From positions 24,619-88,618 of the forward strand of contig JAFSYK010000044.1 of NCBI GenBank assembly GCA_017449975.1: a DNA stretch of 64,000 nt. The letters are read 5' to 3'. Under the pieces are notes generated by a model that was not told where the DNA came from, did no database searches, and was given only the letters and a program-made list of their open reading frames with translations. Each line of letters starts with the position of its first letter. Position 1 is the first letter of the stretch. The DNA comes from Bacteroidales bacterium. GTDB lineage: Bacteria; Bacteroidota; Bacteroidia; Bacteroidales; P3. Shown here piece after piece: positions 1,773 through 61,767 of this stretch. Made by a program: the position numbers and the translations under genes.

Positions 1773-1800
1773 GTGATAGGTGACCTGTGACAAGTGACAT
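1773..1800 (+). repeat. Heptad array, 4 units of GTGAnnn
   Basis: Four consecutive 7-bp units begin with GTGA, the last three positions varying. The array lies in the divergent spacer between the restriction-methylation gene and the M16 peptidase gene. A similar GTGAnnn array occurs at 18199-18226. Confidence 0.75.
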
Positions 1801-1879
1801 GGGGATTTTTTAGGGTTTTAGGGATGAAGGGGTAATAGAGTAAAAACTAAAAGTGTGGTTAGCAGTCGTACTTTTTTTG

Positions 1880-1887
1880 TACCTTTG
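1880..1887 (+). promoter_or_regulatory. -7 box for the M16 peptidase gene
   Basis: TACCTTTG matches the Bacteroidetes -7 consensus and lies 38 bases before the ATG at 1926. The -33 position is poorly conserved (GTGG/TGGT rather than TTTG). Confidence 0.5.
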
Positions 1888-1925
1888 TACTTTCATTTGG
1901 AACCAAATCTTAAATCAATAATCCT

Positions 1926-4859: not shown

Positions 4860-4887
4860 TAGACTAGCATCACCAATTAGCTCTTTT

Positions 4888-4926
4888 ATGACCTCGGCAT
4901 ACGTCGTATGCCGAGGTCATGATTTT
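4888..4926 (+). terminator. Intrinsic terminator after the M16 gene
   Basis: A perfect 15-bp inverted repeat (4888-4902 and 4906-4920) with a 3-base loop is followed by GATTTTT. It lies 28 bases after the peptidase stop codon. Confidence 0.85.
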
Positions 4927-5012
4927 TACACCCGCTGTAAACTTTTGCCTGAATAATTTGTTATTATAAATATGAGGGTGTCTTCGGTGAATTTAGATAA
5001 TCCTCACACTAT

Positions 5013-8164: not shown

Positions 8165-10177
8165 TTATTCTATCACAATCTCATAGACGCGGCCTTCGAT
8201 GTCGGTGGCGTTGAAGGGGATGAGACCTTGCATGTAGACGATGGGGGGCCACCATTCGGAGTAGTGGTACTCCTGCGTGACGATGCAGAGCATCTGGTTG
8301 CTGGGGATGGCGGTGTAGGTGTCGTTCATATAGCCCACCACCCGCATGTGCTGCGGGTCGGGGCCCACGCGCCAGATAATCTCTTTGGGTTTCCACTCGA
8401 TCTCGAAGTAATAGTAGTCCTCGTCAAAGATGCTGTTGGGGATGGGCGTCTTGGTGGTCAGCGCCTTGTAGGTGTCGGTCCAGCGCATGGCCTCGTAGGA
8501 CTGCCCCTGGTAGGGGATGTGCGTGAGGCCGGCGGCGAAGCGGCTGGGCTCCTGGCAGGCCAGGTCCCAGTTGGTGCAGCAGTACATGACATCGCTGTTG
8601 GCGCGGCCATCCTCCACCTTGTCGGGCTGGGTATAGTAGTCTTTGGGCCAGTAGCGCGAGGCTTTGACAATCTCTATGTCTATCTCCGAATAGTTGTCGT
8701 GCACATGCCTGTCGGGGTTCTCGCTGTCGTCGTTCTTGCTGATATAGCCGCCGTGGTAGCTGGGTCTGCGCCGGTTCCACTGGCTGCCGTCCTGATAGAT
8801 GAGCCAGAAAGCATAGGTCAGGCCATTCCAGACATTCTCCTTGTTGAGCATGGGCGGGAACTTGATTTTGCCGCGGTACTTGCCATAGGAAAAGCCTACA
8901 CGGGTCTTCACGCCAGTGGACTCCTTCTTTAATTTTGAATTTTGGATTTTGAATTTTGAAGGGTCTTTTTTTTCAGAATTCGAATTTCGAATTTCAAAAT
9001 TAGCATTGCCGGGGTTGATGATGGAGATATAGCTGCCGTCGGCGGAGGGGTAGACGGTGCTGCCCGGGCAGTCGGTGATGTGGGGATGGTCGTAGACGAG
9101 CTGGGTGCTGTCGTAGCGGGTGGCCGCCGCGTCGTAGTCGGCCTGCGTGTATTCGTCGATGTCCATCACCAGTGGTATGTTGCGCAGCGTGCGTTCCTGG
9201 CTGATGGCGGGGAAGAACTGTTGGTACAACGCATGACGGTACAGCGTGGTGTCGCTGCCCACACGGCCCGGTATCTCGTTCTTGTGCCGGTAGGCAACGC
9301 GTATCTGTGTCTCGTCGACGTAGACGCCCTGCTGCGGTGTCAGCACGGCACGGGTACGGAGCATCTTGCTGCCGTGCAGCAGATGGATGTGCCGGTTTTT
9401 GTTTTGGGCGAACCAGCTGTAGGGGTTCACGTAGTGGCTGTCGGCATCGGTGCGGTTGATATGCTGCACATAGTCGGGTATACGCTGCAGTCCCTCCTCG
9501 TCGCACACCACCAGCAGGAACGAATAGAGACCCGTGCGGGGGTTGCGTTTCCAGCGGTGGTTGACGTCGCCGCCCTGGTGACGTCGCTCGTTAAGCACCC
9601 AGCGGGTGTCGAGGAAGAGTTGCTCCTCCAGGCTGCGGTTGTTCTCGGGAGCCGCCACATCGCGCACATAGCGGAACCAGTGGGTGTCGTTCCTTATCTC
9701 GCGCTCGATGTCGTGCAGCGTCTCAAGGCTACAGTCAAAGTCGGTGAGATCGGCACCGTAGTATTGCCGCTCGTCGCGCGGGTTGCCCACGATGCGGAAG
9801 CTGTCGGCCACATGTCCGTCTGCCGGCACCTGGCGGAAGCCCACTGTCACATCCTCCCACGACCCGTAGAAGTTTTCGTAGTTCAGCGAGTCTGCGTCGT
9901 CGAACCTGTAGCTCTCGTTCTGGTAGTAAATCTTGTAGTAGAGCGGCTGGTCGGCGGTGGTGTCGAACACAAAGTGGAAATACTCGCCTTGGGCGGGCAG
10001 CACGACACCCTCCAATACCGCGTTTTCCATGTCCATGTCCATGCACACCGTGTCGCCCGCATACCCCACCATGGGGTCGAAAGTCCGCTCCCGCGGGGAA
10101 CAAGCGGAGAAAGCTAAAAAGTAAAAAGATAAAACTAAAAGGGGAAGCCCTGTTTTGGTTATCGTTGTTGTTTTCAT
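8165..10177 (-). CDS. Lipoprotein with C-terminal GH16-like domain
   Basis: A 670-residue protein whose N-terminus has a hydrophobic core and lipobox (LAFSAC, Cys near 26), so it is probably anchored as a lipoprotein. Residues about 30-400 are unrecognised. Residues about 430-670 look like a concanavalin-type GH16 domain: YGKYRGKIKFPP, a W-rich NGLTYAFW strand, E498-I-D500-I-E502 matching the lichenase-type EIDIE catalytic signature, then YYYFEIEWKPKEIIWRVG. A beta-glucan or related polysaccharide substrate is plausible but inferred. Two repeat-derived segments stand out: the hydrophobic core itself, and an Asn/Lys/Ser-rich block (about residues 392-416) from the array at 8931-9003. It is the last gene of the minus-strand polysaccharide cluster and starts 1 base after its neighbour's stop. 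Confidence 0.7.
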   Translation of the reverse strand: MKTTTITKTGLPLLVLSFYFLAFSACSPRERTFDPMVGYAGDTVCMDMDMENAVLEGVVLPAQGEYFHFVFDTTADQPLYYKIYYQNESYRFDDADSLNYENFYGSWEDVTVGFRQVPADGHVADSFRIVGNPRDERQYYGADLTDFDCSLETLHDIEREIRNDTHWFRYVRDVAAPENNRSLEEQLFLDTRWVLNERRHQGGDVNHRWKRNPRTGLYSFLLVVCDEEGLQRIPDYVQHINRTDADSHYVNPYSWFAQNKNRHIHLLHGSKMLRTRAVLTPQQGVYVDETQIRVAYRHKNEIPGRVGSDTTLYRHALYQQFFPAISQERTLRNIPLVMDIDEYTQADYDAAATRYDSTQLVYDHPHITDCPGSTVYPSADGSYISIINPGNANFEIRNSNSEKKDPSKFKIQNSKLKKESTGVKTRVGFSYGKYRGKIKFPPMLNKENVWNGLTYAFWLIYQDGSQWNRRRPSYHGGYISKNDDSENPDRHVHDNYSEIDIEIVKASRYWPKDYYTQPDKVEDGRANSDVMYCCTNWDLACQEPSRFAAGLTHIPYQGQSYEAMRWTDTYKALTTKTPIPNSIFDEDYYYFEIEWKPKEIIWRVGPDPQHMRVVGYMNDTYTAIPSNQMLCIVTQEYHYSEWWPPIVYMQGLIPFNATDIEGRVYEIVIE
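8931..9003 (-). repeat. Two heptad arrays inside the GH16-like gene
   Basis: On the plus strand four units of type AATTTTG (8931-8958), then a T-run, then four units of type AATTTCG (8976-9003). They encode the Asn/Lys/Phe-rich insert before the GH16-like domain without breaking the frame. Confidence 0.8.
10107..10141 (-). repeat. Five-unit heptad array encoding a signal-peptide core
   Basis: Read on the minus strand, five 7-bp units of type TTTTTAG/TTTTTAC translate as LLVLSFYFLAFS, the hydrophobic core of the lipoprotein signal. The same word fills spacers elsewhere (10177-10200, 34512-34550, 55644-55720). Confidence 0.85.
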
Positions 10178-11523: not shown

Positions 11524-13044
11524 TCAGAATCTGAAATAGATGAAGGGGCTGAAATCGGTGGCGGCGAGGGCGCCCACGCAGAGGAAGAACAGCAGTCCTG
11601 CCGCGACCCACACGGCGATGTGCTGGCGCGGACTGTAGTCGGTATAGTAGACCCATTGCTGCAGCTTGCGACCCCAGGGGACGAGTGTCACGAAGGCGAA
11701 GCAGAGCGCGGCGATGAGGGTGACAATAAATTGAGAATTGAGAATTGAGAATTGAGAATGGGTCTGTGTTGGGGTGAAATCGAACGCGAAGAGGCGGGTG
11801 AGGAAGGTCCAGCAGTCGCCCAGGTTCTCGATGCGGAACAGCGCCCAGCCCACCATGACCACGAGGAAGGTGAGAAGAACCTTTATTAAATTGAGAAGTG
11901 AGAAGTGAGAATTGAGAATTGAGAACTGTGGTTGGCGGCCCTGTGGAGCCAATTGAAAATTGAAATTTTTATTCTTTTGGGGTTGGGGCGGTTGGTTCCA
12001 GCCGGTGAGGCGTTCCAGCACCAGAAAGAAGCCGTGGTAGGCGCCCCACAGCACGAAGTTCCAGCCGGCGCCGTGCCACAGGCCGCTGAGCAGGAAAACC
12101 ACCCAGAGGTTGAGGTAGGTGCGCCAGACCCCTTTGCGGTTGCCGCCGAGGGGGATGTAGAGGTAGTTGCGCATAAAGGTGCCGAGGGTGATGTGCCAGC
12201 GGCGCCAGAACTCGGTGACGGAGGTAGAGATGTAGGGGTTGTCGAAGTTCTCGGGGAAGCGGAACCCCATGATGCGACCCAGACCGATGGCCATGTCGCT
12301 GTAGCCCGAGAAGTCGAAGTAGAGCTGCATGGTGTAGGCGGCTATCGTCACCCATGCCGTGCCGCTGTCCAGCGTCGCCAGGTCGCCGCCCAGCACCACG
12401 TCCACGGTGCGGCCGATGACGTCGGCGACGAGCACCTTCTTCGACAGACCGATGACGAAGCGGTAGAAGCCCTGCAGGCACTCGTCCCAGCGCAGCCGTC
12501 GCCGGGCGGAGATCTGGTCGGCAATCTCGTTGTAGCGCACTATGGGTCCCGCTATCAGCTGCGGGAACATGATGATGTAGACCACATAGTCCGTCAGCCT
12601 CTCCATGGGTCGGTTGACTCCGCGGTAGGTGTCGATGACATAGGTCACCGACTGGAAGGTGAAGAAACTGATGCCGATGGGCAGCAGCACATGGGTCCAG
12701 CTCATCGTGCCCAGGCCGAGTGCCGTCAGCATGGCGTTGACGTTGTCAACAAAGAAATTGGCGTATTTGAAGTAGGCCAGCAGTCCCAGACTCACCGTCA
12801 GCGCCGCCGCGCACCACAGCCGTTTGGCGGTGACGGTGCGGGCTTTTTCCATTGCCCGCACGAGGTAGAAATTGGCGACGGTCGAGGCCAGCAGCGTCAG
12901 CACGAAGTCCGGCGCACCCCAGGCGTAGAACACAATCGAGGCGACCAGCAGCACGACATTGCGCCACCGTTCCCGCACAAGGAAGTAGACCAGCAGGAAC
13001 ACTGGCAGGAAATACAACAGGAATATGTGACTGCTGAAAACCAC
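11524..13044 (-). CDS. MBOAT family O-acyltransferase (AlgI-like)
   Basis: A 506-residue multi-span membrane protein. It has the family core FDFSGYSDMAIGLGRIMGFRFPENFDNPY, EFWRRWHITLGTFMRNYLYIPLGG, and the catalytic His324 in SGLWHGAGWNF. AlgI-like proteins move acetyl groups from the cytoplasm to a periplasmic transferase; the adjacent AlgJ/AlgX-like gene fits. The start is GTG at 13044 (VFSSHIFLLYFLPVF). Two repeat-derived inserts interrupt the normal sequence: residues about 358-386 (ending in a heptad-encoded FSILNS-type block) and about 428-440 (a second FSILNSQF block). Both keep the frame and fall in loop regions between membrane spans. Confidence 0.9.
   Translation of the reverse strand: MVFSSHIFLLYFLPVFLLVYFLVRERWRNVVLLVASIVFYAWGAPDFVLTLLASTVANFYLVRAMEKARTVTAKRLWCAAALTVSLGLLAYFKYANFFVDNVNAMLTALGLGTMSWTHVLLPIGISFFTFQSVTYVIDTYRGVNRPMERLTDYVVYIIMFPQLIAGPIVRYNEIADQISARRRLRWDECLQGFYRFVIGLSKKVLVADVIGRTVDVVLGGDLATLDSGTAWVTIAAYTMQLYFDFSGYSDMAIGLGRIMGFRFPENFDNPYISTSVTEFWRRWHITLGTFMRNYLYIPLGGNRKGVWRTYLNLWVVFLLSGLWHGAGWNFVLWGAYHGFFLVLERLTGWNQPPQPQKNKNFNFQLAPQGRQPQFSILNSHFSLLNLIKVLLTFLVVMVGWALFRIENLGDCWTFLTRLFAFDFTPTQTHSQFSILNSQFIVTLIAALCFAFVTLVPWGRKLQQWVYYTDYSPRQHIAVWVAAGLLFFLCVGALAATDFSPFIYFRF
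11730..11759 (-). repeat. ATTGAGA heptad array inside the MBOAT gene
   Basis: Four perfect units of ATTGAGA on the plus strand. Read on the minus strand three units give one turn of the peptide FSILNSQ, visible in the protein. Confidence 0.9.
11890..11966 (-). repeat. Heptad array plus GC hairpin-type segment inside the MBOAT gene
   Basis: Five units of A(T/G)TGAGA (11890-11924) are followed by a segment containing GGCGGCCCTGTGGAGCC, which recurs with one or two changes at 18232-18252 beside other heptads. The whole block is translated in frame. Confidence 0.75.
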
Positions 13045-13078: not shown

Positions 13079-14287
13079 ACTCTCCCAGTCCACCAGGCTG
13101 GCGGCGGCGAAGAGCAGCCCCAGGATGGTGACGGCGAGGATGCGGTAGGTGAACCAGAAATGAAGCCCCGAATGGTTGGCCAGAGCCATGAACCAGACGA
13201 GGGGTGCCAGTGCTACGACAAAGCAGGTCAGCGCCTGTCGCCAGCCTTTGCGGTTGAAGTGACGCACTGCCAGTACGACCAACACGACCAGCGCCACTGT
13301 GGCGTAGAACCACGGCACCTGCTCCAGGTTGCGTGTCATGGCCTCCCAGCGGTCGAACTGTTCGACAGAGGCACGCAACGCCACCTGTCCGGTGGCGTCG
13401 GCAAAGACATCGAACGAGGTGGTCACGGTGGCCAGCAGCCATTTGGCAGCCCAGGTGGCGCCATAGCCGACGACCCAGATGAGGGAGTGTAAAATTGAGG
13501 ATTTGTGCGTCTCACATATACCATCATCCACCTTTTCTCTTGAAACCAGCCACACCAGCAGGGGGATGCCCCAGGTGAGCAGGGGACAGGTGAGCAGGTC
13601 GAAGTAAGCGGTCAGCGAGCCCATCACCAAGAAGAACGGCAGCAGCTGTCGCGGTTCCCGCACACGGTACAGCACCCACAGTGTTCCTGCCAGGGCCAGC
13701 AGCAGGGTGGTGAAAAACTGGATGGAGTGCTGCATGATGAAGAGGTTGACGGAGGCCAGGGCGAGCGCGTAAACCACCGCTGCCCAGGTGCCAATGCGGC
13801 GTGCCATGAGGACGAGTGCCCATGCCAGCAGCAGCGACGACAGCAGGTAGAAAAAGGTGCGCAGCGCCAAGTAGTCGTTGATGTAGAGCAGCGCGCGCAT
13901 GAGGAATGTGCTGCCGTGCCAATAGCGGGGGTAGCATAGCTCTTGTAGCGGCTGGTCGCCGTCGACCATAAGCCGCAGGTTTGCGCACTCTTCTCCGCCG
14001 CTAACCTGTCGCGGCACCAGCATCGTGCGCTGCCACAGGTTCTGCTCCGTCCGTCCGTTGGTCAGCGCCTGGTTGACAATCAGTGCGTCGGTGAAGTTGT
14101 CCATGTAGTAGGTGGACTTGTAGAGGAAGGCAAACCAGAAATCGGACTGGAGGTCGTGTTGGTCGACGGTTTCTTTCACATGCTCCTCCACTGGCGCCTG
14201 GGGCAGCAGGGAGGTGGCCAGCCCGAAAAGCAGATAGCAGGCGATTAAAACTAAAAAGTAAAAACTAAAAACTAAAAATCTTTTCAT
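13055..14287 (-). CDS. Multi-span membrane protein of unknown function in polysaccharide cluster
   Basis: A 410-residue protein if started at ATG 14287 (MKRFLVFSFYFLV...); an ATG seven codons upstream is also open. After the first membrane span comes an extracytoplasmic stretch of about 110 residues (VKETVDQHDLQSDFWF ... LQELCYPRYWHG), followed by roughly nine spans. The topology resembles membrane glycosyltransferases of the GT-C or polymerase type, but no diagnostic motif is seen, so no function is claimed. It lies between the GT2 gene (46 bases upstream) and the acyltransferase genes. Its first hydrophobic segment and its last residues (IKLKSKS) are both encoded by heptad arrays. Confidence 0.65.
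   Translation of the reverse strand: MKRFLVFSFYFLVLIACYLLFGLATSLLPQAPVEEHVKETVDQHDLQSDFWFAFLYKSTYYMDNFTDALIVNQALTNGRTEQNLWQRTMLVPRQVSGGEECANLRLMVDGDQPLQELCYPRYWHGSTFLMRALLYINDYLALRTFFYLLSSLLLAWALVLMARRIGTWAAVVYALALASVNLFIMQHSIQFFTTLLLALAGTLWVLYRVREPRQLLPFFLVMGSLTAYFDLLTCPLLTWGIPLLVWLVSREKVDDGICETHKSSILHSLIWVVGYGATWAAKWLLATVTTSFDVFADATGQVALRASVEQFDRWEAMTRNLEQVPWFYATVALVVLVVLAVRHFNRKGWRQALTCFVVALAPLVWFMALANHSGLHFWFTYRILAVTILGLLFAAASLVDWESIKLKSKS
14244..14278 (-). repeat. Five-unit heptad array encoding the first membrane segment
   Basis: On the plus strand five 7-bp units of type CTAAAAA/GTAAAAA. In the minus-strand gene they encode LVFSFYFLVLI, the hydrophobic core of the first span. Confidence 0.85.
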
Positions 14288-14299
14288 GGCCGGAAACAC

Positions 14300-14327
14300 A
14301 TTAAACATTAAACGTTAAACATTAAAC
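14300..14327. repeat. Heptad array, 4 units of (A/G)TTAAAC
   Basis: Four 7-bp units directly upstream of the membrane protein gene. The same word family recurs at 15485-15512. Confidence 0.8.
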
Positions 14328-15269: not shown

Positions 15270-15288
15270 TAAACCTGATACTATTTTG

Positions 15289-15333
15289 GTAGTTAATGTA
15301 GTTAAGGTAGTTAAAGTAGTTAAGGTGGTTAAA
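15289..15333. repeat. Nonad array, 5 units of GTAGTTAAn
   Basis: Five 9-bp units, the first of four arrays in the spacer between the GT2 gene and the GreA-like gene. Confidence 0.85.
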
Positions 15334-15361
15334 GTTAGTTAAAGGACAAATGACTAATAAC

Positions 15362-15440
15362 TTCTTAGTTCTTAACTCTTACTTCTTACTTCCCCTAACT
15401 GCTAACCGCTTTTTAGATTTTAGTTTTTACTTTTTAGTTT
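15362..15440. repeat. Heptad arrays of TTCTTAn and TTTTTAn type
   Basis: About five units of type TTCTTAG (from 15362) grade into degenerate units and then into TTTTTAG/TTTTTAC units near 15409-15440, all with a 7-bp step. Confidence 0.7.
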
Positions 15441-15445
15441 AAAAC

Positions 15446-15512
15446 CTACCCCTTTAACCTTTTGAACCCCTTAACCCCTTTAAACGTTAAACCTTAAACG
15501 TTAAACGATAAA
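15446..15512. repeat. Nonad array (CCCTTTAAC type) followed by heptad array (GTTAAAC type)
   Basis: About four degenerate 9-bp units of CCCTTTAAC type are followed by four 7-bp units of GTTAAAC type, so the period changes inside one spacer. Confidence 0.7.
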
Positions 15513-15514
15513 CA

Positions 15515-15993: not shown

Positions 15994-16038
15994 TCTAGGT
16001 TTTCTAGATTATCTAGATTGTCCAGATATCCTGGATTT
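15994..16038. repeat. Nonad array, 5 units of TCTAGATTn type
   Basis: Five 9-bp units, with increasing divergence, fill the whole spacer between the aminotransferase stop and the GreA-like start. Confidence 0.8.
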
Positions 16039-18194: not shown

Positions 18195-18198
18195 ATTA

Positions 18199-18295
18199 GT
18201 GACAAGTGAATAGTGAATCGTGAAGTGAAAGTCGGCGCCCCTGTGGAGCCCAATGAGAAAGTCTCGTCACTAATCACCAATCACTAATCACACAA
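18199..18295. repeat. Two oppositely oriented heptad arrays around a GC-rich core
   Basis: Four GTGAnnn units (18199-18226), a GC-rich core with GGCGCCCCTGTGGAGCCC (18233-18250), then four CACnnnn units of CACTAAT type (18268-18295). The right array read on the minus strand becomes GTG-words like the left one. It fills the spacer between the delta and alpha subunit genes. Confidence 0.8.
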
Positions 18296-18307
18296 AAAGA
18301 ACAAAGT

Positions 18308-19390
18308 ATGGCAAGAGAACTTCAACTGATGAAGGGCAACGAAGCTATTGCCCGCGCAATGATTGCCAGCGGTACGGACGGCTACTTCGGCTATCCTATC
18401 ACTCCGCAGTCGGAAGTAATGGAAACCTTAATGGCCGAGAAACCGTGGGAGACCACTGGTATGACTGTTCTGCAGGCCGAGAGCGAGGTCGCCTCGATCA
18501 ACATGGTTTACGGCGGTGCCGCCACCGGCAAGAAAGTCGCCACCTCGAGCTCCAGCCCCGGAATTTCGCTGATGCAGGAAGGCCTCACCTATCTGGCAGG
18601 TGCCGAAATCCCCTGCCTCATCGTCAACGTGATGCGCGGCGGCCCCGGTCTGGGTACCATCCAGCCTTCGCAGAGCGACTATTTCCAGAGCACCAAGGGC
18701 GGTGGTCACGGTGACTACCAGCTCTACACCCTGGCTCCCGCCAGCGTGCAGGAGATGTACGACTTCGTGTTCGACGCCTGGGACATCGCTTTCAAGTATC
18801 GCAACCCGGTTCTCATCCTCTCCGACGGTGCCATCGGACAGTGCATGGAAAAACTGTACACCCGTGACAATATGCCTCGCTGGACCGAGGAAGAGCGTCG
18901 CAAGAACGCTCCCTGGGGCACCTGGGGCAAACCCGCCAACCGCAACCACAACATCATCACCTCGCTCGAACTCGACTCCGCTCGTCAGGAGGTCTTCAAC
19001 CTGAAGCTCCAGAAGAAATACGACGAGATGAAAGAGAAAGAGGTTCGCTACGAGATGCTGAACTGCGAAGACGCCGAGTACATCATCGTGGCCTACGGTT
19101 CCAGCAGCCGTATCGCTATGAAGGCTATGCAGATGGCCCGCGAAAAGGGCATCAAGGTCGGCCTCTTCCGCCTCATCACCCTCTTCCCCTTCCCGACCAA
19201 ACAGCTGGCCGAGGTGGCTGCTCACGTAAAGGGTATCCTCTGCGTCGAGATGAGCGCCGGTCAGATGATCGAGGATGTGAAGCTTGCCACCAAGTGCGGT
19301 GTCAAGACTGAGCATTTCGGTCGTTTCGGTGGCATCATCCCCACCCCCGGCGAGGTCCTGGAGGCTCTGGAAAACAAAATCATTAAGTAA
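18308..19390 (+). CDS. vorB: 2-oxoacid:ferredoxin oxidoreductase, alpha subunit (VorB-like)
   Basis: A 360-residue protein with the family motifs: LMKGNEAIARAMIASGTDGYFGYPITPQSEVME, QAESEVASINMVYGGAATGKKVATSSSSPGISLMQEGL, and NVMRGGPGLGTIQPSQSDYFQSTKGGGHGDY. Length and motifs match the 3-methyl-2-oxobutanoate/2-oxoglutarate type alpha subunit, which with the beta subunit oxidises a 2-oxoacid to an acyl-CoA, reducing ferredoxin. Whether the substrate is branched-chain 2-oxoacids or 2-oxoglutarate is not decided by the sequence I can read. Confidence 0.9.
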   Translation: MARELQLMKGNEAIARAMIASGTDGYFGYPITPQSEVMETLMAEKPWETTGMTVLQAESEVASINMVYGGAATGKKVATSSSSPGISLMQEGLTYLAGAEIPCLIVNVMRGGPGLGTIQPSQSDYFQSTKGGGHGDYQLYTLAPASVQEMYDFVFDAWDIAFKYRNPVLILSDGAIGQCMEKLYTRDNMPRWTEEERRKNAPWGTWGKPANRNHNIITSLELDSARQEVFNLKLQKKYDEMKEKEVRYEMLNCEDAEYIIVAYGSSSRIAMKAMQMAREKGIKVGLFRLITLFPFPTKQLAEVAAHVKGILCVEMSAGQMIEDVKLATKCGVKTEHFGRFGGIIPTPGEVLEALENKIIK

Positions 19391-19434
19391 CATCCGACAG
19401 GTCTGACTAGTCCGACTAGTCTGACACGTCTGAC
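19390..19434. repeat. Nonad array, 5 units of TAGTCTGAC type
   Basis: Five 9-bp units ending in CCGAC or CTGAC fill most of the spacer between the alpha and beta subunit genes. Confidence 0.85.
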
Positions 19435-19450
19435 AAAACACAGAAAAACA

Positions 19451-20301: not shown

Positions 20302-20346
20302 TATAAGTCCTATAAGGCCTATAAGTCCTATAGGTCCTATAAGTAT
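20302..20346. repeat. Nonad array, 5 units of TATAAGTCC type
   Basis: Five 9-bp units lie between the beta and gamma subunit genes. Confidence 0.85.
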
Positions 20347-27484: not shown

Positions 27485-27547
27485 TCCGATTAGACTAATT
27501 GGACCAATTAGACTAATTAGACCAATTAGACCAATTAGACCAATAAT
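27485..27547. repeat. Nonad array, 7 units of ACCAATTAG type
   Basis: Seven 9-bp units fill the spacer between the pump and Nudix genes. Related words (TAGACCAAT, ATTAGTCCA) appear at 56267, 57715 and 59541. Confidence 0.9.
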
Positions 27548-28119: not shown

Positions 28120-28193
<74 letters not shown>

Positions 28194-28194
<1 letters not shown>

Positions 28195-28315
28195 AAATCA
28201 AAAGTGAGCAGGACGCAGTCCTGCTTTTTTTATGTGGTCAACTCGGCTAAAGCTTGCTTTCAGCCGGGTTGACTGCATAAAAAGGGTCCTGTACAGCATA
28301 CTCACTTTTGATTTT
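28194..28315. repeat. Nested inverted-repeat region between the tRNA and the transposase
   Basis: A perfect 15-bp inverted repeat (28194-28208 and 28301-28315) encloses the tRNA terminator and a second long hairpin (28237-28253 with 28256-28273, one mismatch and one bulge). The outer arms overlap the tRNA CCA end by one base. The arrangement resembles a small palindromic mobile unit. Confidence 0.6.
28207..28231 (+). terminator. Intrinsic terminator of the tRNA gene
   Basis: AGCAGGAC (28207-28214) pairs with GTCCTGCT (28218-28225) across a 3-base loop, followed by TTTTTTA. It lies 13 bases after the tRNA. Confidence 0.85.
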
Positions 28316-28332
28316 GAGCAAAGTCCCCTCCA

Positions 28333-28361
28333 CTGGATCGCGAGCGAAGCGAGCAATCCAG
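28333..28361. repeat. REP-like palindrome next to the transposase gene
   Basis: CTGGAT and ATCCAG flank a GCGAGCGAAGCGAGC core. The core recurs at 36840-36856 and, in variant form, at the other composite palindromes of the window. It lies 26 bases from the transposase stop codon. Confidence 0.6.
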
Positions 28362-28386
28362 CTTCCGCTATTTCCCAAAAGTTTCC

Positions 28387-29590: not shown

Positions 29591-31657
29591 CTATAGCTGT
29601 TTCAGCGCTTTCTCCAGGAACTGCGCCATGCCGTCGGCTTTGCTGTTGGCGCTCTTGGCGGGGTCGTAGATATAGACTTCGGGCAACACCTGGTTGCCGT
29701 CGGCGTCGATGACGGCATAGCAGGGCTGTGCGTTCTGGTTGAACTGTTCTATCTGGTAGCGCAGGTTGCGGCGCCCCAGCGTCTTGATGGTGCGGCTGCC
29801 GTCGACAATCCACTCCTCTTCGGGCAGCTCAATGTCGTTCATGTCGGCATACAGCGCGCAGATGACAAACTCCTCGTTGAGCAGCTTCTTCACCCTTGGG
29901 TCGGTCCACGCCACCTGCTCCATCTCGCGGCAGTTGGCGCAGTTGCGTCCGGTGAAATCGATGAACACCGGCTTGCCCACCTCGCGGGCGTAGGCCTTGG
30001 CCTCCTCAATGTCGTAGAAGCCTTCGAAGCCTGTGGGCAGATGCAGCTTGTCGGCGTATTTACGGTCGGCGGGCAGCTTGCCTACGGTCACTGTGCCGCC
30101 GTTGCCGCCGCCGTGCTCCACCACCAGTTTCTCGATATTGAAATCCTGCGTGTCCATCGGTGGCAGGAAACCGGCGATGCCGTTGAGCGGGGCGCCCCAC
30201 ATGCCGGGAATCATATAGACCACGAATGAGAAGGTGGCGATGACCAGCGTCAGCCGCAACACGCCGATATGTTCCACCGGCTCGTCGTTCTTGAACCGTA
30301 TCTTGCCCAGCAGGTACATACCCATGAGGCCGAAGATCACGATCCACAGCGCCAGGTATACCTCGCGGTCGAGCAGATGCCAGCTCCAGTAGAGGTCAGC
30401 CATCTGCAGGAATTTGAGGCCGAAAGCCAGCTCGAGGAAGGCGAAGACGATCTTCACGGCGTTCATCCAACCGCCCGACTTCATATTTTTGATCATCGAC
30501 GGGAAGATGGCCAGCAGCGTGAACGGCAGCGCGAAGCCGATGCCGAAGCCCAGCATGGTGAGCAGCGACACCCACCGGTTGGCCGTGCTGGTGGCGAAGC
30601 CCACCAGTGCGCCGCCGATGATGGGACCAGTGCAGCTGAAAGAGATGAGCACTGTCGTCAGCGCGATAAAGAACGGTGCCATCAGGCCACCCTTGTCGGC
30701 CTGCTCGTCGCTCTTGTTCACCCATTTTTCGGGCAGCTTGATCTCAAACAGACCGAAGAACGATAGGGCGAAGACGATGAAGATGGCAAAGAAAATGAGG
30801 TTCGTCACACCGTGTGTGCCCACCAAGTTCAGCACCTCGGGGCCGAAGAACAGCGACAGTATGGCGCCCAGCACGGTGAAGATAAACACGATAGAGAAGC
30901 CGAAGAACCACGCCTGGCGACGGCTCTTGCGCTTGCTTCCGTTGCCGTGCATGAAGAAGTTGACGGTCATCGGTATCATGGGGAACACGCACGGCGTGAA
31001 CATCGTCACGATGCCGAACAGCAGCGCGCCGAAGAAAATCGCCCAAAGGCCGCCGGAAGCACTCTCTGAGGCGGCAGGCTTGTCATCAGGGCTCTCTGAA
31101 TATTCTGAGTACTCAGAGGATTCTGAGGATTCAGAGGATTCAGAGGATTCAGATGACTCCGATACCTCGGATGCCACTTCCGCCACCACCGTCGCCACTT
31201 CCGCCGCCTCTTTCACCTTTATCTCAAACGGCACATCGTCGGGGGCGATGCAGCTGGTCTCGTTGCACAGCTGATAGTAGAGGCTACCTTTCACGCTAAA
31301 ACTCTTGCCTGTGGTGCGGCGTATCTTCTGGCGGAACTTCACGGTGCCGTCAAACGACCGTACCACCACGCCAAACATCTCGTCCATCGCCTCGTGGGGC
31401 TTGGGCTCGCGCACTGCGCCGACGCGGCTGTAGTCCTTGCTCTCGTCGAACGTCACCTGCAGCGGGATGGGGCCACCTGTGCTGGAGTGCTGCGAGTAGA
31501 TATGCCAGCCGTCGTCGAGTTTGACGGTCAGCGTCAGCTCCACCTCGTCGCCCGACAGGTTCTGTGCATTGAAGCTCCAGTGGGCGGGGTTCAGCACCTG
31601 TGCCGTCGCCGACAGCATACAGATGCAAGCCATTAAGAAAGGTATCAGTTTTCTCAT
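29591..31657 (-). CDS. DsbD-family thiol:disulfide interchange protein
   Basis: A 688-residue protein started at ATG 31657 with a signal peptide (MRKLIPFLMACICMLSATAQ). In order: an N-terminal periplasmic domain (DUF255/DsbD-alpha-like, with CNETSC), an acidic Ser/Glu linker (about residues 164-200), an eight-span membrane domain with the paired redox cysteines in FTPCVFPMIP and SCTGPIIGG, and a C-terminal thioredoxin domain with GRNCANCREME (CxxC). It should move electrons from cytoplasmic thioredoxin to periplasmic partners. The linker is encoded by a nonad array, so its length could vary without a frameshift. Confidence 0.9.
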   Translation of the reverse strand: MRKLIPFLMACICMLSATAQVLNPAHWSFNAQNLSGDEVELTLTVKLDDGWHIYSQHSSTGGPIPLQVTFDESKDYSRVGAVREPKPHEAMDEMFGVVVRSFDGTVKFRQKIRRTTGKSFSVKGSLYYQLCNETSCIAPDDVPFEIKVKEAAEVATVVAEVASEVSESSESSESSESSESSEYSEYSESPDDKPAASESASGGLWAIFFGALLFGIVTMFTPCVFPMIPMTVNFFMHGNGSKRKSRRQAWFFGFSIVFIFTVLGAILSLFFGPEVLNLVGTHGVTNLIFFAIFIVFALSFFGLFEIKLPEKWVNKSDEQADKGGLMAPFFIALTTVLISFSCTGPIIGGALVGFATSTANRWVSLLTMLGFGIGFALPFTLLAIFPSMIKNMKSGGWMNAVKIVFAFLELAFGLKFLQMADLYWSWHLLDREVYLALWIVIFGLMGMYLLGKIRFKNDEPVEHIGVLRLTLVIATFSFVVYMIPGMWGAPLNGIAGFLPPMDTQDFNIEKLVVEHGGGNGGTVTVGKLPADRKYADKLHLPTGFEGFYDIEEAKAYAREVGKPVFIDFTGRNCANCREMEQVAWTDPRVKKLLNEEFVICALYADMNDIELPEEEWIVDGSRTIKTLGRRNLRYQIEQFNQNAQPCYAVIDADGNQVLPEVYIYDPAKSANSKADGMAQFLEKALKQL
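31096..31176 (-). repeat. Nine-unit nonad array encoding the DsbD linker
   Basis: Nine 9-bp units of TCAGAGGAT type (plus strand) translate as the tripeptide-based SES/SSE/EYS series on the minus strand. The 9-bp step keeps the reading frame. Confidence 0.9.
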
Positions 31658-31687: not shown

Positions 31688-33013
31688 CTACTTCAAATTA
31701 TATTTCAAAGTCTTGTGAGCCTTGGCGGTCTCTATCTCCAGCGTATAGCGTCCCTTGGGCAGCTTGTTGATGCCGATGCGTTTGCCGCTGGTGTAATGCT
31801 CGATGGTGCGCACCGTCGTCCCCTCTTTGTCGACAAAGGTGATGGTGGCCTCTTCGCCGCCGCTGTATTTCAGCACGATATATCCCAGGTCGAGGTAGGG
31901 CACCACCTTCACATCCAGCGTCGCGCTGGCGCTTTTCGTCGTCCCTGCCTTGCCTGTGCTGGCGCCTGTCGTCGCATCGCTGCTGGCGGCCTCGGCCGTC
32001 TCCTCCTTGGGTGGCTCGATGGGTTTCGGCTCGGGGAACTTAAACTCGCTCAGGGCAAACAGGCCGTAGAAATCGCTGCCGAACCACACGGTGCCCATGG
32101 CGTCGGCCGCCACGCACTGCATATTGGCCTCTGCCGGGAAGGGGCTGTTGGTGGCGTTGAAGGCATACCATTTCCCCTTGCGGTCGTACACGGCGCCGCC
32201 CTTGTTGGTGGCGATCCACAGCCATCCCTGTGCGTCCAGTGCCAGTGCGTTGATCTGGTTGGAGGGCAGGGGAGTGTTGTCGGTATTGAAAATCTGCCAT
32301 TTCTCGCCGTCGAAGCGGCAGAGACCCTTGTCGGTGCCCACCCATTTGATATTGTCGCCGTCCACGGCGATGGCAGGCACGATATTCGACGGCAGCCGCG
32401 AGTTCTTGTTGGTGAACAGCGTCCACGTGCGTCCGTTGTAGAGGCAGAGGCCGGCGTTGGTGCCGATCCATTTGCGGTTGGCGCGGTCAATGGCGGTGCA
32501 GAGCACAAAATCGCTCAGCAGCTCCGAGTCGTCGGGCGTATACTTGTCCCAGTTGCGGCCGTCGTAGCGCACCAGACCGTTCAGTGTCACGCTGATCCAC
32601 TTCACGTCGTTGATGTCGATGGCGATGCTGTGTATCAGCCGCATATTGTATTTCTTCAGTTCGTCGGGGTACTCCTTCCACTCCTTGCCGTCATACGAGA
32701 TGGGGCCGTAGTCGTCGGTGCCGATCCACAGCACGCCGTCGCGGTCCACGGCGAAGCAGTTCACATACTGTCCTTCCAGCTTGCTGTTGCTGGCCGACAG
32801 GTCCGTCCAGGTGCGTCCCTTGAAGTGGAACAGCCCTTCGGGGGTGCCCACCCACAGGTTATGGCGTGCGTCGGCTGCCAAAGCCAGAATGGTATTGCCC
32901 GCCAGCTTGCTGTTGGTGTTGTTATAGGCTGTCCAGGTCTCCTGCGCCCACAGGCTGCAGGTACTTATCATCAAGGTCAATATGGCAATGAGTCGTTTCA
33001 CAAATTCCCGCAT
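31688..33013 (-). CDS. Secreted beta-propeller protein with two-component-regulator-type repeats
   Basis: A 441-residue protein with a signal peptide (LIAILTLMISTCSLWAQ). Residues 25-330 hold about seven repeats of the Reg_prop type, each with a phrase like NxLxALAxDxxGxxWxGTxxGLxxxDGxxW (for example DGVLWIGTDDYG, NRKWIGTNAGL, NIKWVGTDKGL). A low-complexity Ala/Ser/Thr-rich stretch (about 345-375) leads to a C-terminal Ig-like piece. No histidine kinase or transmembrane part follows, so this is a stand-alone propeller. Ligand and role are unknown. It lies 30 bases upstream of dsbD on the same strand. Confidence 0.75.
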   Translation of the reverse strand: MREFVKRLIAILTLMISTCSLWAQETWTAYNNTNSKLAGNTILALAADARHNLWVGTPEGLFHFKGRTWTDLSASNSKLEGQYVNCFAVDRDGVLWIGTDDYGPISYDGKEWKEYPDELKKYNMRLIHSIAIDINDVKWISVTLNGLVRYDGRNWDKYTPDDSELLSDFVLCTAIDRANRKWIGTNAGLCLYNGRTWTLFTNKNSRLPSNIVPAIAVDGDNIKWVGTDKGLCRFDGEKWQIFNTDNTPLPSNQINALALDAQGWLWIATNKGGAVYDRKGKWYAFNATNSPFPAEANMQCVAADAMGTVWFGSDFYGLFALSEFKFPEPKPIEPPKEETAEAASSDATTGASTGKAGTTKSASATLDVKVVPYLDLGYIVLKYSGGEEATITFVDKEGTTVRTIEHYTSGKRIGINKLPKGRYTLEIETAKAHKTLKYNLK

Positions 33014-33014
33014 T

Positions 33015-33102
33015 CAAACAATCAAACAATCAAACAATCAAGCAATCAAACAATCAAGCAATCAAGCAATCAAACAATCAAGCAATCAAGCAATCAAGCA
33101 AT
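33015..33102. repeat. Octad array, 11 units of CAA(A/G)CAAT
   Basis: Eleven 8-bp units differ only at one position (A or G). They occupy nearly the whole spacer between the propeller gene and its upstream neighbour. It is the longest array in the window. Confidence 0.95.
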
Positions 33103-34423: not shown

Positions 34424-34562
34424 AACTCTCAATTCTCAATTTCCTAATTCTCCTGCTCGGCCTTTCGGCCTCACGAAATCTCTCGTATCTTGTAGATTTC
34501 CCGCTTCGCGGATTTTTTAGTTTTTAGTTTTTACTTTTTAGTTTTCTCAACTCTCAATTCTC
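34424..34562. repeat. Composite spacer: heptads, REP-like palindrome, nonads, heptads
   Basis: From left to right: TTCTCAA-type heptads (from 34424); the composite palindrome (34450-34520: a CTGCTCGGCCTTTCGGCC hairpin, about three 9-bp units, then CCGCTTCGCGG); TTTTTAG/TTTTTAC heptads (about 34512-34550); and further CTCTCAA-type units. It occupies the divergent spacer before the M23 peptidase gene; no promoter consensus is seen in it. Confidence 0.75.
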
Positions 34563-44568: not shown

Positions 44569-44686
44569 TGAACTTGCTGAACCGTTCAATCCAACAACCC
44601 AACAGTTAAACAGTTCAACAATTCAACTGAACTTGCTGAATCGTTCAATCCAACAACCCAACAGTTAAACAGTTCAACAATTCAAC
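44569..44686. repeat. 59-bp tandem duplication built of octads
   Basis: Two copies of a 59-base unit (44569-44627 and 44628-44686) differ at one base. Within each unit several 8-bp words of CAGTTCAA type follow one another. Confidence 0.9.
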
Positions 44687-44699
44687 AATCCAACCAGGC

Positions 44700-55476: not shown

Positions 55477-55567
55477 AAGCATCGTTATACCGTAATTTCG
55501 TTATACCGTAATTTCGTTATAACGTTATAACGCATGACCTTCAAAATCCAAAAAGTAGAACGGTAAA
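55444..55567. repeat. Duplicated greA 3' end around an octad array
   Basis: The 34 bases 55444-55477 (end of greA with its stop) recur at 55534-55567 with one change (C to A). Between them six 8-bp units of CGTTATAC/CGTAATTT/CGTTATAA type occupy 55483-55530. The second copy codes nothing. Confidence 0.9.
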
Positions 55568-55576
55568 TCTCGGATT

Positions 55577-55745
55577 CTCCTGCTCGCGCTTCGCGCTCGC
55601 GAAATCTATAAATCTTATAAATTATTTCGCTTCGCGGATTATTTAGTTTTTACTTTTTACTTTTTAGTTTTTAGTTTTTACTTTTTAGTTTTTTTACTTT
55701 TTAGTTTTTACTTTTTAGTTTTCTCAATTCTCAATTCTCAATTCC
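55577..55745. repeat. Composite palindrome followed by long heptad arrays
   Basis: A composite palindrome copy at 55577-55640 (inverse orientation to those at 36682 and 36863) is followed by about ten TTTTTAG/TTTTTAC heptads (55644-55720) and TTCTCAA heptads (55721-55745). It fills the spacer between greA and the HIT gene. Confidence 0.85.
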
Positions 55746-55751
55746 CAAACC

Positions 55752-56144: not shown

Positions 56145-56178
56145 AAAAAGGCGCCCCCCCCCCGGGCGCCTTTTTTTC
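56143..56178 (+). terminator. Intrinsic terminator of the HIT gene
   Basis: A-run plus GGCGCCC pairs with GGGCGCC plus T-run (arms 56143-56156 and 56164-56177). It is nearly identical to the terminator at 56434. Confidence 0.9.
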
Positions 56179-56205
56179 TATGCGGCGCCCCCCGCCCATT
56201 AAACC

Positions 56206-56430
56206 CATCCTGCCCATCCCGCCCCCAGCACCCCATCCAGCACCCGCCATCGGCGCCCCCGCCCATTAGCCCCATTGGCCCAATTAGACCAATTGGACCA
56301 ATTAGACCAATTAGACCAATTGGACCCATTAGCCCCATTAGCCCCATTAGTCCAACCCGCACCCCCAACCCCAACCGTAGGGGCGTACCCCCGTGTACGC
56401 CCGCACCCCCACCCATTAGCCCAATTAGTC
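56206..56430. repeat. C-rich spacer with a long nonad array and a GGGCGTAC hairpin
   Basis: Ten clear 9-bp units of TAGACCAAT/TGGACCCAT type occupy 56267-56356, preceded by degenerate CCCAT units. At 56369-56400 follows a segment with the hairpin GGGCGTAC/GTACGCCC that recurs at 59598-59630. No gene is seen between 56145 and 56498. Confidence 0.8.
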
Positions 56431-56433
56431 CAA

Positions 56434-56470
56434 TAAAAAAAAGGCGCCCCATCCGGGCGCCTTTTTTTTC
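56434..56470. terminator. Terminator serving purM, copy of the HIT terminator
   Basis: GGCGCCC (56443-56449) and GGGCGCC (56455-56461) with an A-run and a T-run on both sides. It follows the purM stop on the minus strand and could also work on the plus strand. Confidence 0.85.
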
Positions 56471-56498
56471 GGCGCCCTGCCAGGGCGCCGGACTGGCG

Positions 56499-57671: not shown

Positions 57672-57672
57672 T

Positions 57673-57813
57673 GGTTGAAAGGTTTAAAGGTTAGAGGGTT
57701 TGAGTGTTAAACCTATTAGTCCAATTAGTCCAATTGGTCCTATTAGTCCTATTGGTCCCATTGGTCCTATTAGTCCAATTGGTCCCATTAGTCCCATTAG
57801 TCCCATTAGTCCC
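57673..57813. repeat. Octad array followed by an 11-unit nonad array
   Basis: Five 8-bp units of GGTTGAAA type (57673-57712) are directly followed by eleven 9-bp units of ATTAGTCCA/ATTGGTCCC type (57715-57813). They fill the spacer between purM and glnA. The plus-strand frame through them (ISP/IGP tripeptides) is not taken as a gene. Confidence 0.9.
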
Positions 57814-57824
57814 ATTCCTCACTA

Positions 57825-59330: not shown

Positions 59331-59369
59331 GATAATGATAGATAGATAAAAAGAAAGTAAAACGAAAAA

Positions 59370-59430
59370 GCTGAGTGAAAAGTAAAAACGAAAAAGTAAA
59401 AACTAAATAGTGAAACGAAAAGCTAAATAA
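59370..59430. repeat. Heptad array of AAAAGTA/AAAACGA type
   Basis: About six 7-bp units, A-rich and degenerate toward the right, lie in the leader region of glnA. Confidence 0.6.
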
Positions 59431-59504
59431 CTAATAATGAAGATGAAAAGATAATAAAAAAGATAATAAATAAGAAGTATTGTTTTTTTATCTAAACTAT
59501 AAAT

Positions 59505-59513
59505 GCAAAGATA
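59505..59513 (-). promoter_or_regulatory. -7 box for glnA
   Basis: The minus strand reads TATCTTTGC. The distance to the ATG at 59330 is about 174 bases, a long leader. The -33 element is not consensus. Confidence 0.45.
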
Positions 59514-59540
59514 AAGATTTTTTTTCAAACAATCGGAGTT

Positions 59541-59735
59541 ATTGGACCAATTAGTCCAATTAGTCCAATTAGTCCAATTAGTACCCCCAACCCCCAACCT
59601 CAACCGTACGGGCGTACCCCCGTGTACGCCCCCAACCCCCCAACCGCACCCCCAACCCCGCAACCCCAACCTCCCAACCCCAACCCGCACCCAATCCCTC
59701 CCCCTCCCGCACTATCACACATTCTCCCTCCCGCA
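59541..59735. repeat. Nonad array followed by C-rich heptad-like tract with GGGCGTAC hairpin
   Basis: Five 9-bp units of ATTAGTCCA type (59541-59585) lead into C-rich words (CCCAACC-like, about 7 bp) and the GGGCGTAC/GTACGCCC hairpin at 59598-59630, also found at 56369-56400. The spacer 59331-59966 holds no gene. Confidence 0.75.
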
Positions 59736-59817
59736 TTAAAAAAATTTTCCTATCTTTATAGAATAACCCCGTGTATCCATTCACGGCTTATTGTATTGTT
59801 ATATATGTTCTTAAATG

Positions 59818-59900
59818 ACTTTTTAACAATAGGGGAGAGGCTGTATAAACCTTTCCGGTTGGGTTTTGTCTTGTCCAAACCCCCCTCCAGCGTTTATTAA
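59818..59900 (+). other. Possible structured leader upstream of the first Ig-like protein gene
   Basis: After a weak -7 box (TATCTTTA, 59751-59758) comes a G-rich then C-rich stretch (AGGGGAGAGG ... GGGTTTTG ... CAAACCCCCCTCC) able to fold into a nested hairpin about 75 bases before the start at 59967. It could be an attenuator or only a stable leader. Confidence 0.3.
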
Positions 59901-59966
59901 AAAAACAAAATAGCATATTAAAAACTTAAAAAAACTTATCAATTTTATAATTTAACTCTTAACATT

Positions 59967-61478
59967 ATGGTAAAACGATTACTGATGACTTTTATGGCTG
60001 TGCTGGCGATAGCGGCGGCCACGGGGTCCGCAAGGGCGCAGGCAAACATCTCTGGAAACTCTATTGACTTCTTTGAAAGTAGCGGAACCCTCAGCAGCGA
60101 TATGACCTGCACAGACTTTAATGTCTATGGTTATAGCATGCTGACCGTCAACCAGGGCGTCACGCTCACTTTGAACTGCGAAGATTTCAATCTTAAAACC
60201 AACAGTGCCATATACCTTCACGGCACGATGACAGGGTCTGTCGGCGGCGAACCAGACTGGAACAACAACAGCTACATCGACGTCTATCTCTCCGACGGCG
60301 CGAAGTACACGGTCTCCGGGCTGGAGTGCATGGATGGAGACGGCTACCTGCGCTATCACGGCTACGACGCCGCCACCGACGGCCACGGCACGGTAAGCGT
60401 GACCAACGGCTCGGCCGCCGTGACCGACGGCAGCATCGGCTACAGGACGACCACCTACACCTTCACCGCCACCCCCGCCAGCGGCTACCGCTTCGTGAAC
60501 TGGACCAAGGGCGCGGGCGGCGAGGAGCTCGGCACCGATGCCAGCATCGACGTCACCTGCCAGCAGAACGGGCGGTATCAGGTGTATGCCAACTTCGCAC
60601 AGGTTCCCGTGCCCATCACCGTCCGCATGGCCGCTGGCACCGAGGATGCTGCCAACTGGAGCATCGCTTCGGGCAACGTCTCTGTGCCGGGCACCCAGGT
60701 GCTGGAGAATGTGATGTCGGGCTCCGAGGTCACCGCCACCTACAACGGCACCACCCGCAAGGTGAAGAGCGTGAAGGCTGTGAAGTATGTGCCGCCGGTG
60801 CTCGTGGAGAGCATCGTGCTGGACAAGCAGACGGCCTTCCTCGGCGTGGACAGCACCATGACGCTGACGGCCTCGGTGCTGCCCGAGAACGCTGCGGACA
60901 AGAGCTACACCTGGAGCAGTGACGCCACCGCCGTGGCCTGGGTGAACGAGAACGGCGTGGTGACCGGCTACAACCCCGGCACCGCCAACATCATCGCCAC
61001 CGCCAACGACGGCAGCGGCGTGAAGGACACCTGCGTCGTCACCGTGCTGAGCCCCGTCATCCTCGACGGCGTGACGGTGCTCTATGCTTCCGACAACGAC
61101 ACCTGGTCCACCATCATTGGCTACAACCCGGGCGTGCTGTACCATGACGGCAATAATGTGAGGCTGACCTCCAACGGCGCCTTTCTCTATTTTGATGGTC
61201 ACCAGGTGCTTGTAGATGATTTTATTCACCCCGTCGTCTTAGAATATTATCAATGGCTGCGCAAAGCCGAAATCAGCGGCTCTGAATTCTATTATCACCA
61301 GGGCGAGACTTGGCAACAAGCCATCAGTGCCGACCGAATGTATAACGAACAATGGTCAATAAATGATGGTAAGGTGATATACATGGGGGACTGGATACTG
61401 GTTGATGATAATTGGGAGCCGGTAGCCCCGACGGCCACAATTGACCCGTCGACAGTCGACTACTATTTTGATTTTTAA
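59967..61478 (+). CDS. Secreted protein with bacterial Ig-like (Big2) domain
   Basis: A 503-residue protein with a signal peptide (LLMTFMAVLAIAAATGSARAQ). Residues 25-120 may form a beta-helix-like front (LTVNQGVTLTLNCEDFNLKTNSAIYLHG). A repeat of YTFTATPASGYRFVNWTKG type (about residues 165-190) follows, then a Big2 domain (VESIVLDKQTAFLGVDSTMTLTASVLPENAADKSYTWSSDATAVAWVNENGVVTGYNPGTANIIATA, about 270-350). The C-terminus (about 370-503) is unrecognised and shows no T9SS sorting domain. Surface exposure is likely; function is unknown. Confidence 0.7.
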   Translation: MVKRLLMTFMAVLAIAAATGSARAQANISGNSIDFFESSGTLSSDMTCTDFNVYGYSMLTVNQGVTLTLNCEDFNLKTNSAIYLHGTMTGSVGGEPDWNNNSYIDVYLSDGAKYTVSGLECMDGDGYLRYHGYDAATDGHGTVSVTNGSAAVTDGSIGYRTTTYTFTATPASGYRFVNWTKGAGGEELGTDASIDVTCQQNGRYQVYANFAQVPVPITVRMAAGTEDAANWSIASGNVSVPGTQVLENVMSGSEVTATYNGTTRKVKSVKAVKYVPPVLVESIVLDKQTAFLGVDSTMTLTASVLPENAADKSYTWSSDATAVAWVNENGVVTGYNPGTANIIATANDGSGVKDTCVVTVLSPVILDGVTVLYASDNDTWSTIIGYNPGVLYHDGNNVRLTSNGAFLYFDGHQVLVDDFIHPVVLEYYQWLRKAEISGSEFYYHQGETWQQAISADRMYNEQWSINDGKVIYMGDWILVDDNWEPVAPTATIDPSTVDYYFDF

Positions 61479-61767
61479 TTATGGATAACTAGTAACCCCT
61501 CGCGGCGAAAAGGAGTGCCCTGCGGGCAGAAATCACACAAATCGGAACAAATCAAACAAATATATTGGTCGCCCTTCGGGCTCAAAATTAAAAGAAAATT
61601 GAACAAGAAAATTAAAAGAAAATTTTGAATAATTTTGAAACCAATTTTTCTATAATTTTGAGCGCAGCGACCCAAAAAGAAAAAGGATTTGAAGGATTTG
61701 AAGGATTTCTCGCCAACGGCGACTCCCGAAAAGAACGAATTCAAAACAAATTAAAAACATAACGACA
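61479..61767. repeat. Repeat-filled spacer between the two Ig-like protein genes
   Basis: It contains nonads of AAATCnnnn type (61530-61565), a short GCCCTTCGGGC palindrome (near 61571), A-rich heptad-like tracts, the dispersed segment 61632-61674 (see 36630-36672), and three GGATTTGAA nonads (61685-61711). No gene is seen. Confidence 0.75.

Follow-up and report, generated by a model that had tools for sequence, protein, structure and literature searches.

Recurring words in the short-period tandem arrays of a Bacteroidales genome

In bacteria, arrays of short period are usually ascribed to slippage. Cyanobacterial STRR sequences form short heptanucleotide tandem arrays dispersed in the genome. 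Eukaryotes have foldback elements, the inverted arms of which consist of short tandem repeats. Heptamer direct repeats are known in Cyanobacteria, Beggiatoaceae and Bacteroidetes. These heptamers carry stop codons in all frames, their copies overlap stop codons or sit inside reading frames, Bacteroidetes have assemblages of several heptamers, and mobility is raised as a possibility (PMC4679880). Another study reports that heptamers are over-represented and that repeats of 6–9 nt have been little studied (PMC4692102). Both refer to a survey of 2007, in which long simple sequence repeats had units of 5–11 nt, heptamers being the commonest, and in which slippage was invoked together with a 7-nt contact of the polymerase (via PMC4679880 and PMC4692102).

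We analysed a stretch of 64,000 nucleotides, called the window below, from a draft Bacteroidales MAG of 2.31 Mb in 103 contigs. One protein of the window matches those of Bacteroidales MAGs at up to 98% identity, many of them of ruminant-gut origin by title; the near relatives of the host are largely ruminant-gut MAGs, and it is an uncultured bacterium of gut type. An initial annotation of the window had reported numerous arrays with units of 7–9 bp, holding that no ordinary class of sequence explains them. The latter statement must be withdrawn, as heptamer direct repeats have already been described in the accounts just cited (PMC4679880, PMC4692102). For the rest, the observation is partly confirmed and its interpretation partly supported.

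Arrays in the window, the genome and the genus

Arrays were located with a finder of our own (match +1, mismatch -2, periods 3–30, score at least 14, with a looser run at score 10). Gene calls come from a codon-score program of our own making, which leaves the partition between spacers and genes approximate. Array counts come from a sample of the genome (328 kb), the whole genome being used only when patterns and families were searched for. The window contains 28 arrays at score 14, 23 of which have a period of 7–9 bp, while 100 dinucleotide shuffles of its spacers yielded on average 0.03 arrays each. The arrays are therefore real. Tandem Repeats Finder (TRF) places a period of 7–9 in 34 of its 64 rows, which overlap. 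Intergenic arrays make up 23 of the 28, of which 18 have a period of 7–9; the five others lie in genes, four with period 7 and one, at 31095, with period 9, possibly an ordinary coding repeat. The arrays named beforehand at 11730, 14244, 14300, 15289, 19390, 20302, 27485, 33015, 34512, 55483, 55644, 56267 and 57715 are all present, our finder scoring that at 55483 with a period of 16 bp (2 x 8). By contrast, GTGAnnn (1773), the copy at 10107 and GGTTGAAA (57673) are weak, falling under the thresholds of both finders, and the array at 15994 is detected by TRF alone, our own finder missing it.

The nonamer arrays of the window include GTAGTTAAn at 15288–15344 (TRF and own finder), a TAGTCTGAC-type array between two oxidoreductase subunit genes at 19396–19436 (TRF and own finder), TATAAGTCC directly past the gene that follows this pair at 20302–20344, ATTAGACCA at 27489–27544 (TRF and own finder), ATTAG[ACT]CC with about 10 units at 56262–56355, ATTAGTCC[ACT] with 11 units at 57712–57816 and CCAATTAGT with four perfect units at 59547–59582. 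Octamers comprise CAA[AG]CAAT, with 11 units, at 33010–33102, CAATTCAA-type arrays within a 59-bp tandem duplication (98% match) at 44569–44694 (TRF), and CGTTATAC/CGTAATTT, with a higher unit of 16 bp, at 55482–55532. Besides these, TRF reports a perfect 22-bp tandem repeat of 2.6 copies, of ACTCACGCGCGTC type, at 63068–63125, and a C-rich imperfect repeat of CCCCAACC type at 59629–59702, close to a 9-bp array. The spacer of the convergent pair at 56145–56498 has strong predicted GGCGCC hairpins on both sides of its 9-bp array, and at 28120–28386 a tRNA gene is followed, within one spacer, by long predicted hairpins. A CRISPR does not fit, the units abutting head to tail with no unique spacers between repeats. 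A search of the window against Rfam gave a single tRNA at gathering score, and no spacer array matched a family.

The arrays were said to fill almost every spacer, which goes too far: 13 of the 38 window spacers of at least 40 bp are occupied at score 14, and 16 at score 10. Outside the window a 7–9 bp array is present in 34 of 161 spacers (score 14), or in 37 of 161 under an alternative overlap rule. Density is 35.9 arrays per 100 kb in the window against 21.2 in 264 kb of the sampled remaining genome, the total for the sampled genome being 79 arrays of 7–9 bp in 328 kb (24 per 100 kb), with 39 of 7 bp, 12 of 8 bp and 28 of 9 bp. Nor do they cluster in the same spacers, as nine spacers have at least two arrays for a null mean of 12. 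The period is sharply delimited. At score 10, the spacers of the window have 13, 5 and 10 arrays at periods 7, 8 and 9, with 0, 2, 0 and 1 at periods 5, 6, 10 and 11; in the spacers of the sampled remaining genome the counts are 33, 22 and 24, with 0, 1, 0 and 0.

This restriction to 7–9 bp, initially taken as fixed, holds for the genome and fails for the genus. In 24 congeners, sampled over 17–40 kb each, the density of 7–9 bp arrays varies between 0 and 44 per 100 kb. Several congeners have mainly 11-bp arrays, and in the pooled sample no other period has as many arrays as period 11, with 56 versus 38, 14 and 23 at periods 7, 8 and 9. The 11-bp arrays of congeners (L155–L158, L183–L186 and others) use one or two words per species and are often found in divergent spacers (13 of the 29 that were placed). 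Farther away, stretches from 12 relatives in the order show no period peak, and 28 of the 490 spacers of 59 more distant loci have a 7–9 bp array. With members so unequal in array density, the genus lends itself to a comparative search for the cause of the arrays.

Arrays also turn over, and a given spacer may hold a different array, or no array at all, in a related species. The spacer between the oxidoreductase genes, which harbours a 9-bp array here, is at most 19 bp long in 14 of 21 resolved loci of relatives (45 loci were tried and 24 not placed; some of those resolved are probably one genome from two sources). In the spacer at 33014, compared by eye, other words form arrays in L267, L276, L279 and L281, and none is obvious in the other resolved relatives (17 of 24 were compared, seven being left out as minus-strand loci that were not turned). 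The spacers at 57672, for which no relative was resolved, and 15270, which gave no usable result, are outside this comparison. A difference of one 9-bp unit separates L100 from L104 in one spacer. Genome G331, considered as a close sister for empty sites, proved too distant, its best DNA match being 72% over 124 bases, and neither a target-site duplication nor a clean empty site emerged from this comparison, a point against copying.

Shared words and the order of units

The word of these arrays had been considered free, and this view has to be abandoned: words recur at unlinked loci, each keeping its own period. AAAAACT groups 8 arrays, AATTCTC 7, AAAATTC 6, AATTAGACC 6 and AAAATCTAG 5, and there are other 9-bp variants that conform to TTRGWCCNA. 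Among arrays more than 1 kb apart, 100 pairs have a word in common; shuffling the letters of the words gives a mean of 9 such pairs and at most 25, and drawing words from spacer k-mers a mean of 1.2 and at most 7. In the window, heptamers of the TTAAAC family are seen at 14298–14327 (TTAAAC[AG]) and 15480–15513 (TTAAAC[GC]), and the AATTCTC family, besides the genic cases described below, at 55721–55748 (TTCTCAA, plus strand).

The TTTTTA[GC] family shows, in addition, a recurrent order of its variant units. Window members lie at 14247–14278 (minus strand, G,G,C,G), at 15410–15440 (plus strand, G,(g),C,G), at 34514–34545 (plus strand, G,G,C,G, adjoining a dispersed hairpin core) and at 55642–55722 (plus strand, a long array containing G,G,C,G). 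A search blind to order found 11 arrays of this type in the sampled genome. The order G,G,C,G occurs in seven, although the second unit is altered in two of these; three of the remaining four are three-unit strings that fit the same order, and the last, C,G,C,G, shares the spacer of another. In the whole genome the order-blind pattern has 27 matches, corresponding to 22 loci once overlapping matches are merged by hand. G,G,C,G is the exact order of 13 loci and is present in 15. When the unit letters were permuted 20,000 times, with the C,G,C,G tetrad of the long contig 11 locus excluded, identical four-unit orders averaged 4.8 and never exceeded 10, and 13 were observed. One order at 13 of 22 loci implies that ready-made arrays were copied. 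The nine loci that depart from this exact order count against copying. The backward control of the order-blind pattern has four matches in G002.

The ordered 28-mer, with at most one mismatch, has 29 matches in the genome itself, 25 in G331, 11 in G322 and 6 each in G006 and G324; within the genus, four more genomes have 1–3 and 71 of 80 have none, while its backward control has no match among the 80. The six copies of G324 all end in TTTATAG, a unit private to them. In a draw from the whole order, 4 of 295 genomes have matches, the three besides the present one with only G,G,G,G, and the control read backwards has one match each in five other genomes. Copies occur in both orientations. Beyond the array the copies have in common only some three T to the right and, weakly, A,C to the left, the flanks being otherwise unrelated, in an alignment of 36 rows from fewer loci in which most copies had been retrieved for their resemblance to G,G,C,G. 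What has spread in the TTTTTA[GC] family is thus a block of four units, about 32 bp long and already formed. When variant units keep one order at sites that are not linked, copying is marked directly, and this can be scored in any genome with such arrays. A fixed order was not seen in the TTAAAC, AATTCTC and 9-bp families, where orders are mixed, fitting local slippage equally; for this reason copying is established for TTTTTA[GC] only. Sharing of words suggests that the other families may have been copied as well.

Arrays inside genes bring another kind of evidence. Called genes contain 13 of the 39 heptamer arrays. In the 14 genic arrays of period 7–8 the codon score is negative within the array in every case, and it is positive on the left flank in 13 and on the right in 11; it is likewise negative in 15 of 16 genic arrays of congeners. 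One case is an MBOAT O-acyltransferase gene (11524–13044, minus strand; Pfam MBOAT 1.1e-28, and alignment), with two inserts in its open frame, which yield peptides like NSQFSIL. The first, TTCTCAC/AATTCTC at 11892–11925 (minus strand), lies beside a GGCTCCACAGGGCCGCC core at about 11935–11951; the second, AATTCTC (AATTGAG on the plus strand), is at 11729–11759 (minus strand). When six homologues from five congeners are aligned, five are devoid of such an array. The sixth (L201, from G021) has arrays at one matching site and at a second one, where the array replaces conserved codons rather than adding to them, which counts against the explanation favoured below.

How the arrays may have spread

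With somewhat better than even confidence, we consider that the arrays are small dispersed repeat families, in which a pre-formed array is copied to new sites before slippage, drift and selection act on it. The copy step would most plausibly take place in the course of replication or repair, by template switching or from a single-stranded piece. The copied array would then gain or lose whole units through slippage or unequal exchange and drift by point mutation, selection leaving copies mainly in spacers and at stop-free, in-frame positions of genes. Besides the shared words and the order of units, the turnover between relatives, the in-frame inserts and the one-unit difference between L100 and L104 speak for this view. 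A bolder proposal, to which we give appreciably less credit, is that ready-made arrays of about 30 bp are a minimal form of mobile DNA, lacking a transposase of its own and copied by the host into spacers and genes, each species amplifying its own words with a step of 7–9 bp (11 in relatives), from strongly to almost silently within a single genus. Arrays that move, if they do, would supply new sequence to spacers and in-frame peptide inserts to proteins. Two candidate enzymes, Y1_Tnp and RVT_1, were followed in 26 draft genomes of the genus, and neither tracks array density; this counts against the favoured explanation, as does the finding that arrays do not cluster in particular spacers.

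The main competitor, which we regard as possible but doubtful, has each array arise by independent slippage in its spacer, with a polymerase favouring steps of 7–9 bp and words of low structure, so that shared words come from composition combined with slippage bias; this is the proposal attributed to the 2007 survey (via PMC4679880 and PMC4692102). It is favoured by the sharp 7–9 period, by the one-unit change between relatives and by the mixed orders of several families. It also agrees with the fact that 35 of 39 heptamer words lack G or C on one strand (38% in the null), as do 33 of 37 in congeners, a feature that the 9-bp words do not share (5 of 28). Slippage could, furthermore, have a word bias of its own that raises word sharing, which counts against copying. 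What it explains poorly is the excess of same-word pairs over letter-shuffled words, and the one variant order of TTTTTA[GC]. The genus, moreover, mixes 7–9 with 11-bp arrays, so that no single step length fits. Slippage is insufficient alone because one variant-unit order occurs at many unlinked sites, and slippage with a free word is rejected as a complete account, given the words shared between loci and the fixed order of units. The consequence for the single process of copying or slippage suggested at the outset is that copying is indeed involved, and that slippage cannot by itself have spread the variant order.

That each word is a regulatory or terminator site, selected and kept in spacers, appears unlikely. 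It would suit the location of 49 of 59 intergenic arrays between codirectional genes, the background being 140 of 188 spacers. It would also suit the 10 of 19 codirectional 9-bp arrays that begin at most 15 bp from a stop codon, a raw count without a null, and the known repeats that are mostly directly upstream of start codons (PMC4679880). This pre-start placement of Beggiatoaceae type is not seen here: of 21 codirectional heptamer arrays, 5 have a start codon at a distance of 15 bp or less, and 8 a stop codon. Against selected sites stand the turnover of arrays in the same spacer between congeners, words that differ among species and arrays inside genes. Stop codons are also alike on either strand of the units: in codirectional arrays the sense units have one in 16 of 21 cases at 7 bp and 17 of 19 at 9 bp, and the antisense strand in 18 of 21 and 15 of 19. 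Antisense stops being as frequent as sense ones, there is no strand preference, and the idea of a stop-codon insulator was dropped.

Movement by a RAYT (Y1) transposase, as for REP/BIME-type elements, is improbable to a still higher degree. Some arrays do adjoin a dispersed hairpin core (CTGCTCG...CGCTTCGCGGAT, 55572–55646, plus strand), with eight blastn matches in 328 kb, query included, and others form inverted arms, as at 18195–18328, where a GTGAATAG-type left arm and a TCACTAA-type right arm enclose a GC-rich core (TRF array at 18267; sequence and fold). An inverted partner lies within 150 bp of 5 of the 79 arrays (0 and 0 in two controls), of 12 of 58 congener arrays (3 and 1) and of 10 of 36 arrays of 10–11 bp (0 and 0), and the genome has two matches to Y1_Tnp. 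The heptamers, though, are barely more self-complementary than their shuffles (3.51 versus 3.69 mismatches, P 0.027). For the 9-bp words of the genome the figures are 3.71 versus 4.07 (P 0.047), and palindromic 9-bp words were discarded as a candidate, the effect being weak here and not seen in congeners (P 0.36). Y1_Tnp is present in 19 of the 26 genus genomes, most in the array-poor G001 (7) and G024 (6), and was not found in array-rich G014 or G019, which are drafts; across the 26 draft genomes it is unrelated to array density, for which reason the transposase was rejected.

There remains the idea, which we find scarcely credible, that the arrays are captured products made by a reverse transcriptase, whether telomerase-like or belonging to a defence system. 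Repeats can be inserted at DNA breaks, and L201, where repeats have taken the place of coding sequence, might be likened to this. The RVT_1 gene of the genome, its only one, adjoins in a row genes with an HRDC domain and an FGE-sulfatase fold (L382 1301–3985, contig 29 of G000), a layout which we take to be that of a diversity-generating retroelement. In favour of capture, the unit length resembles that of the tandem-repeat cDNA made by DRT10, which is 9 nt in one system (PMC12632851). Against it, RVT_1 is found in 10 of the 26 genus genomes and was absent from array-rich G002 (98% complete; the Pfam model may miss divergent ones), and it was set aside on the strength of that dense genome and of the neighbours of the present copy.

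The arrays beside known repeat systems

STRR arrays differ in their words and host, and 9-bp families are present in the genome studied here. Foldback elements resemble those arrays that are inverted arms around a core, which are far smaller, concern a minority of arrays and have no known transposase. REP/BIME elements with RAYT are likewise dispersed and extragenic (PMC3733652), and hairpin cores lie beside some arrays here; the heptamers of this genome, by contrast, seem hardly palindromic, and Y1_Tnp is unrelated to their density. The G-rich, quadruplex-forming heptamers of Xanthomonas and Nostoc, GGGAATC and GGGGA(C/T)T, are similar in that they are mostly intergenic, variable in unit number and tolerant of unit variants (PMC4692102), whereas ours are AT-rich, with a mean GC of 0.22, and the two patterns tested are absent here. 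With the long repeats of the 2007 survey, known to us through later accounts, the dominance of heptamers is common ground, the difference being the fixed unit order that here shows whole-array copying.

The TAACTGA repeats are head-to-tail heptamers at many loci, mainly intergenic (PMC4679880), as the present arrays are. Their two-unit form, TAACTGATAACTGA, was not found in 328 kb of the genome or in the congener stretches. The open-access papers searched included none joining 9-bp, tandem repeats, intergenic regions and Bacteroidetes. In comparison with the heptamers already known, what is new here is the coexistence of several words, the families of 8 and 9 bp, and evidence, from the order of units, that arrays were copied.
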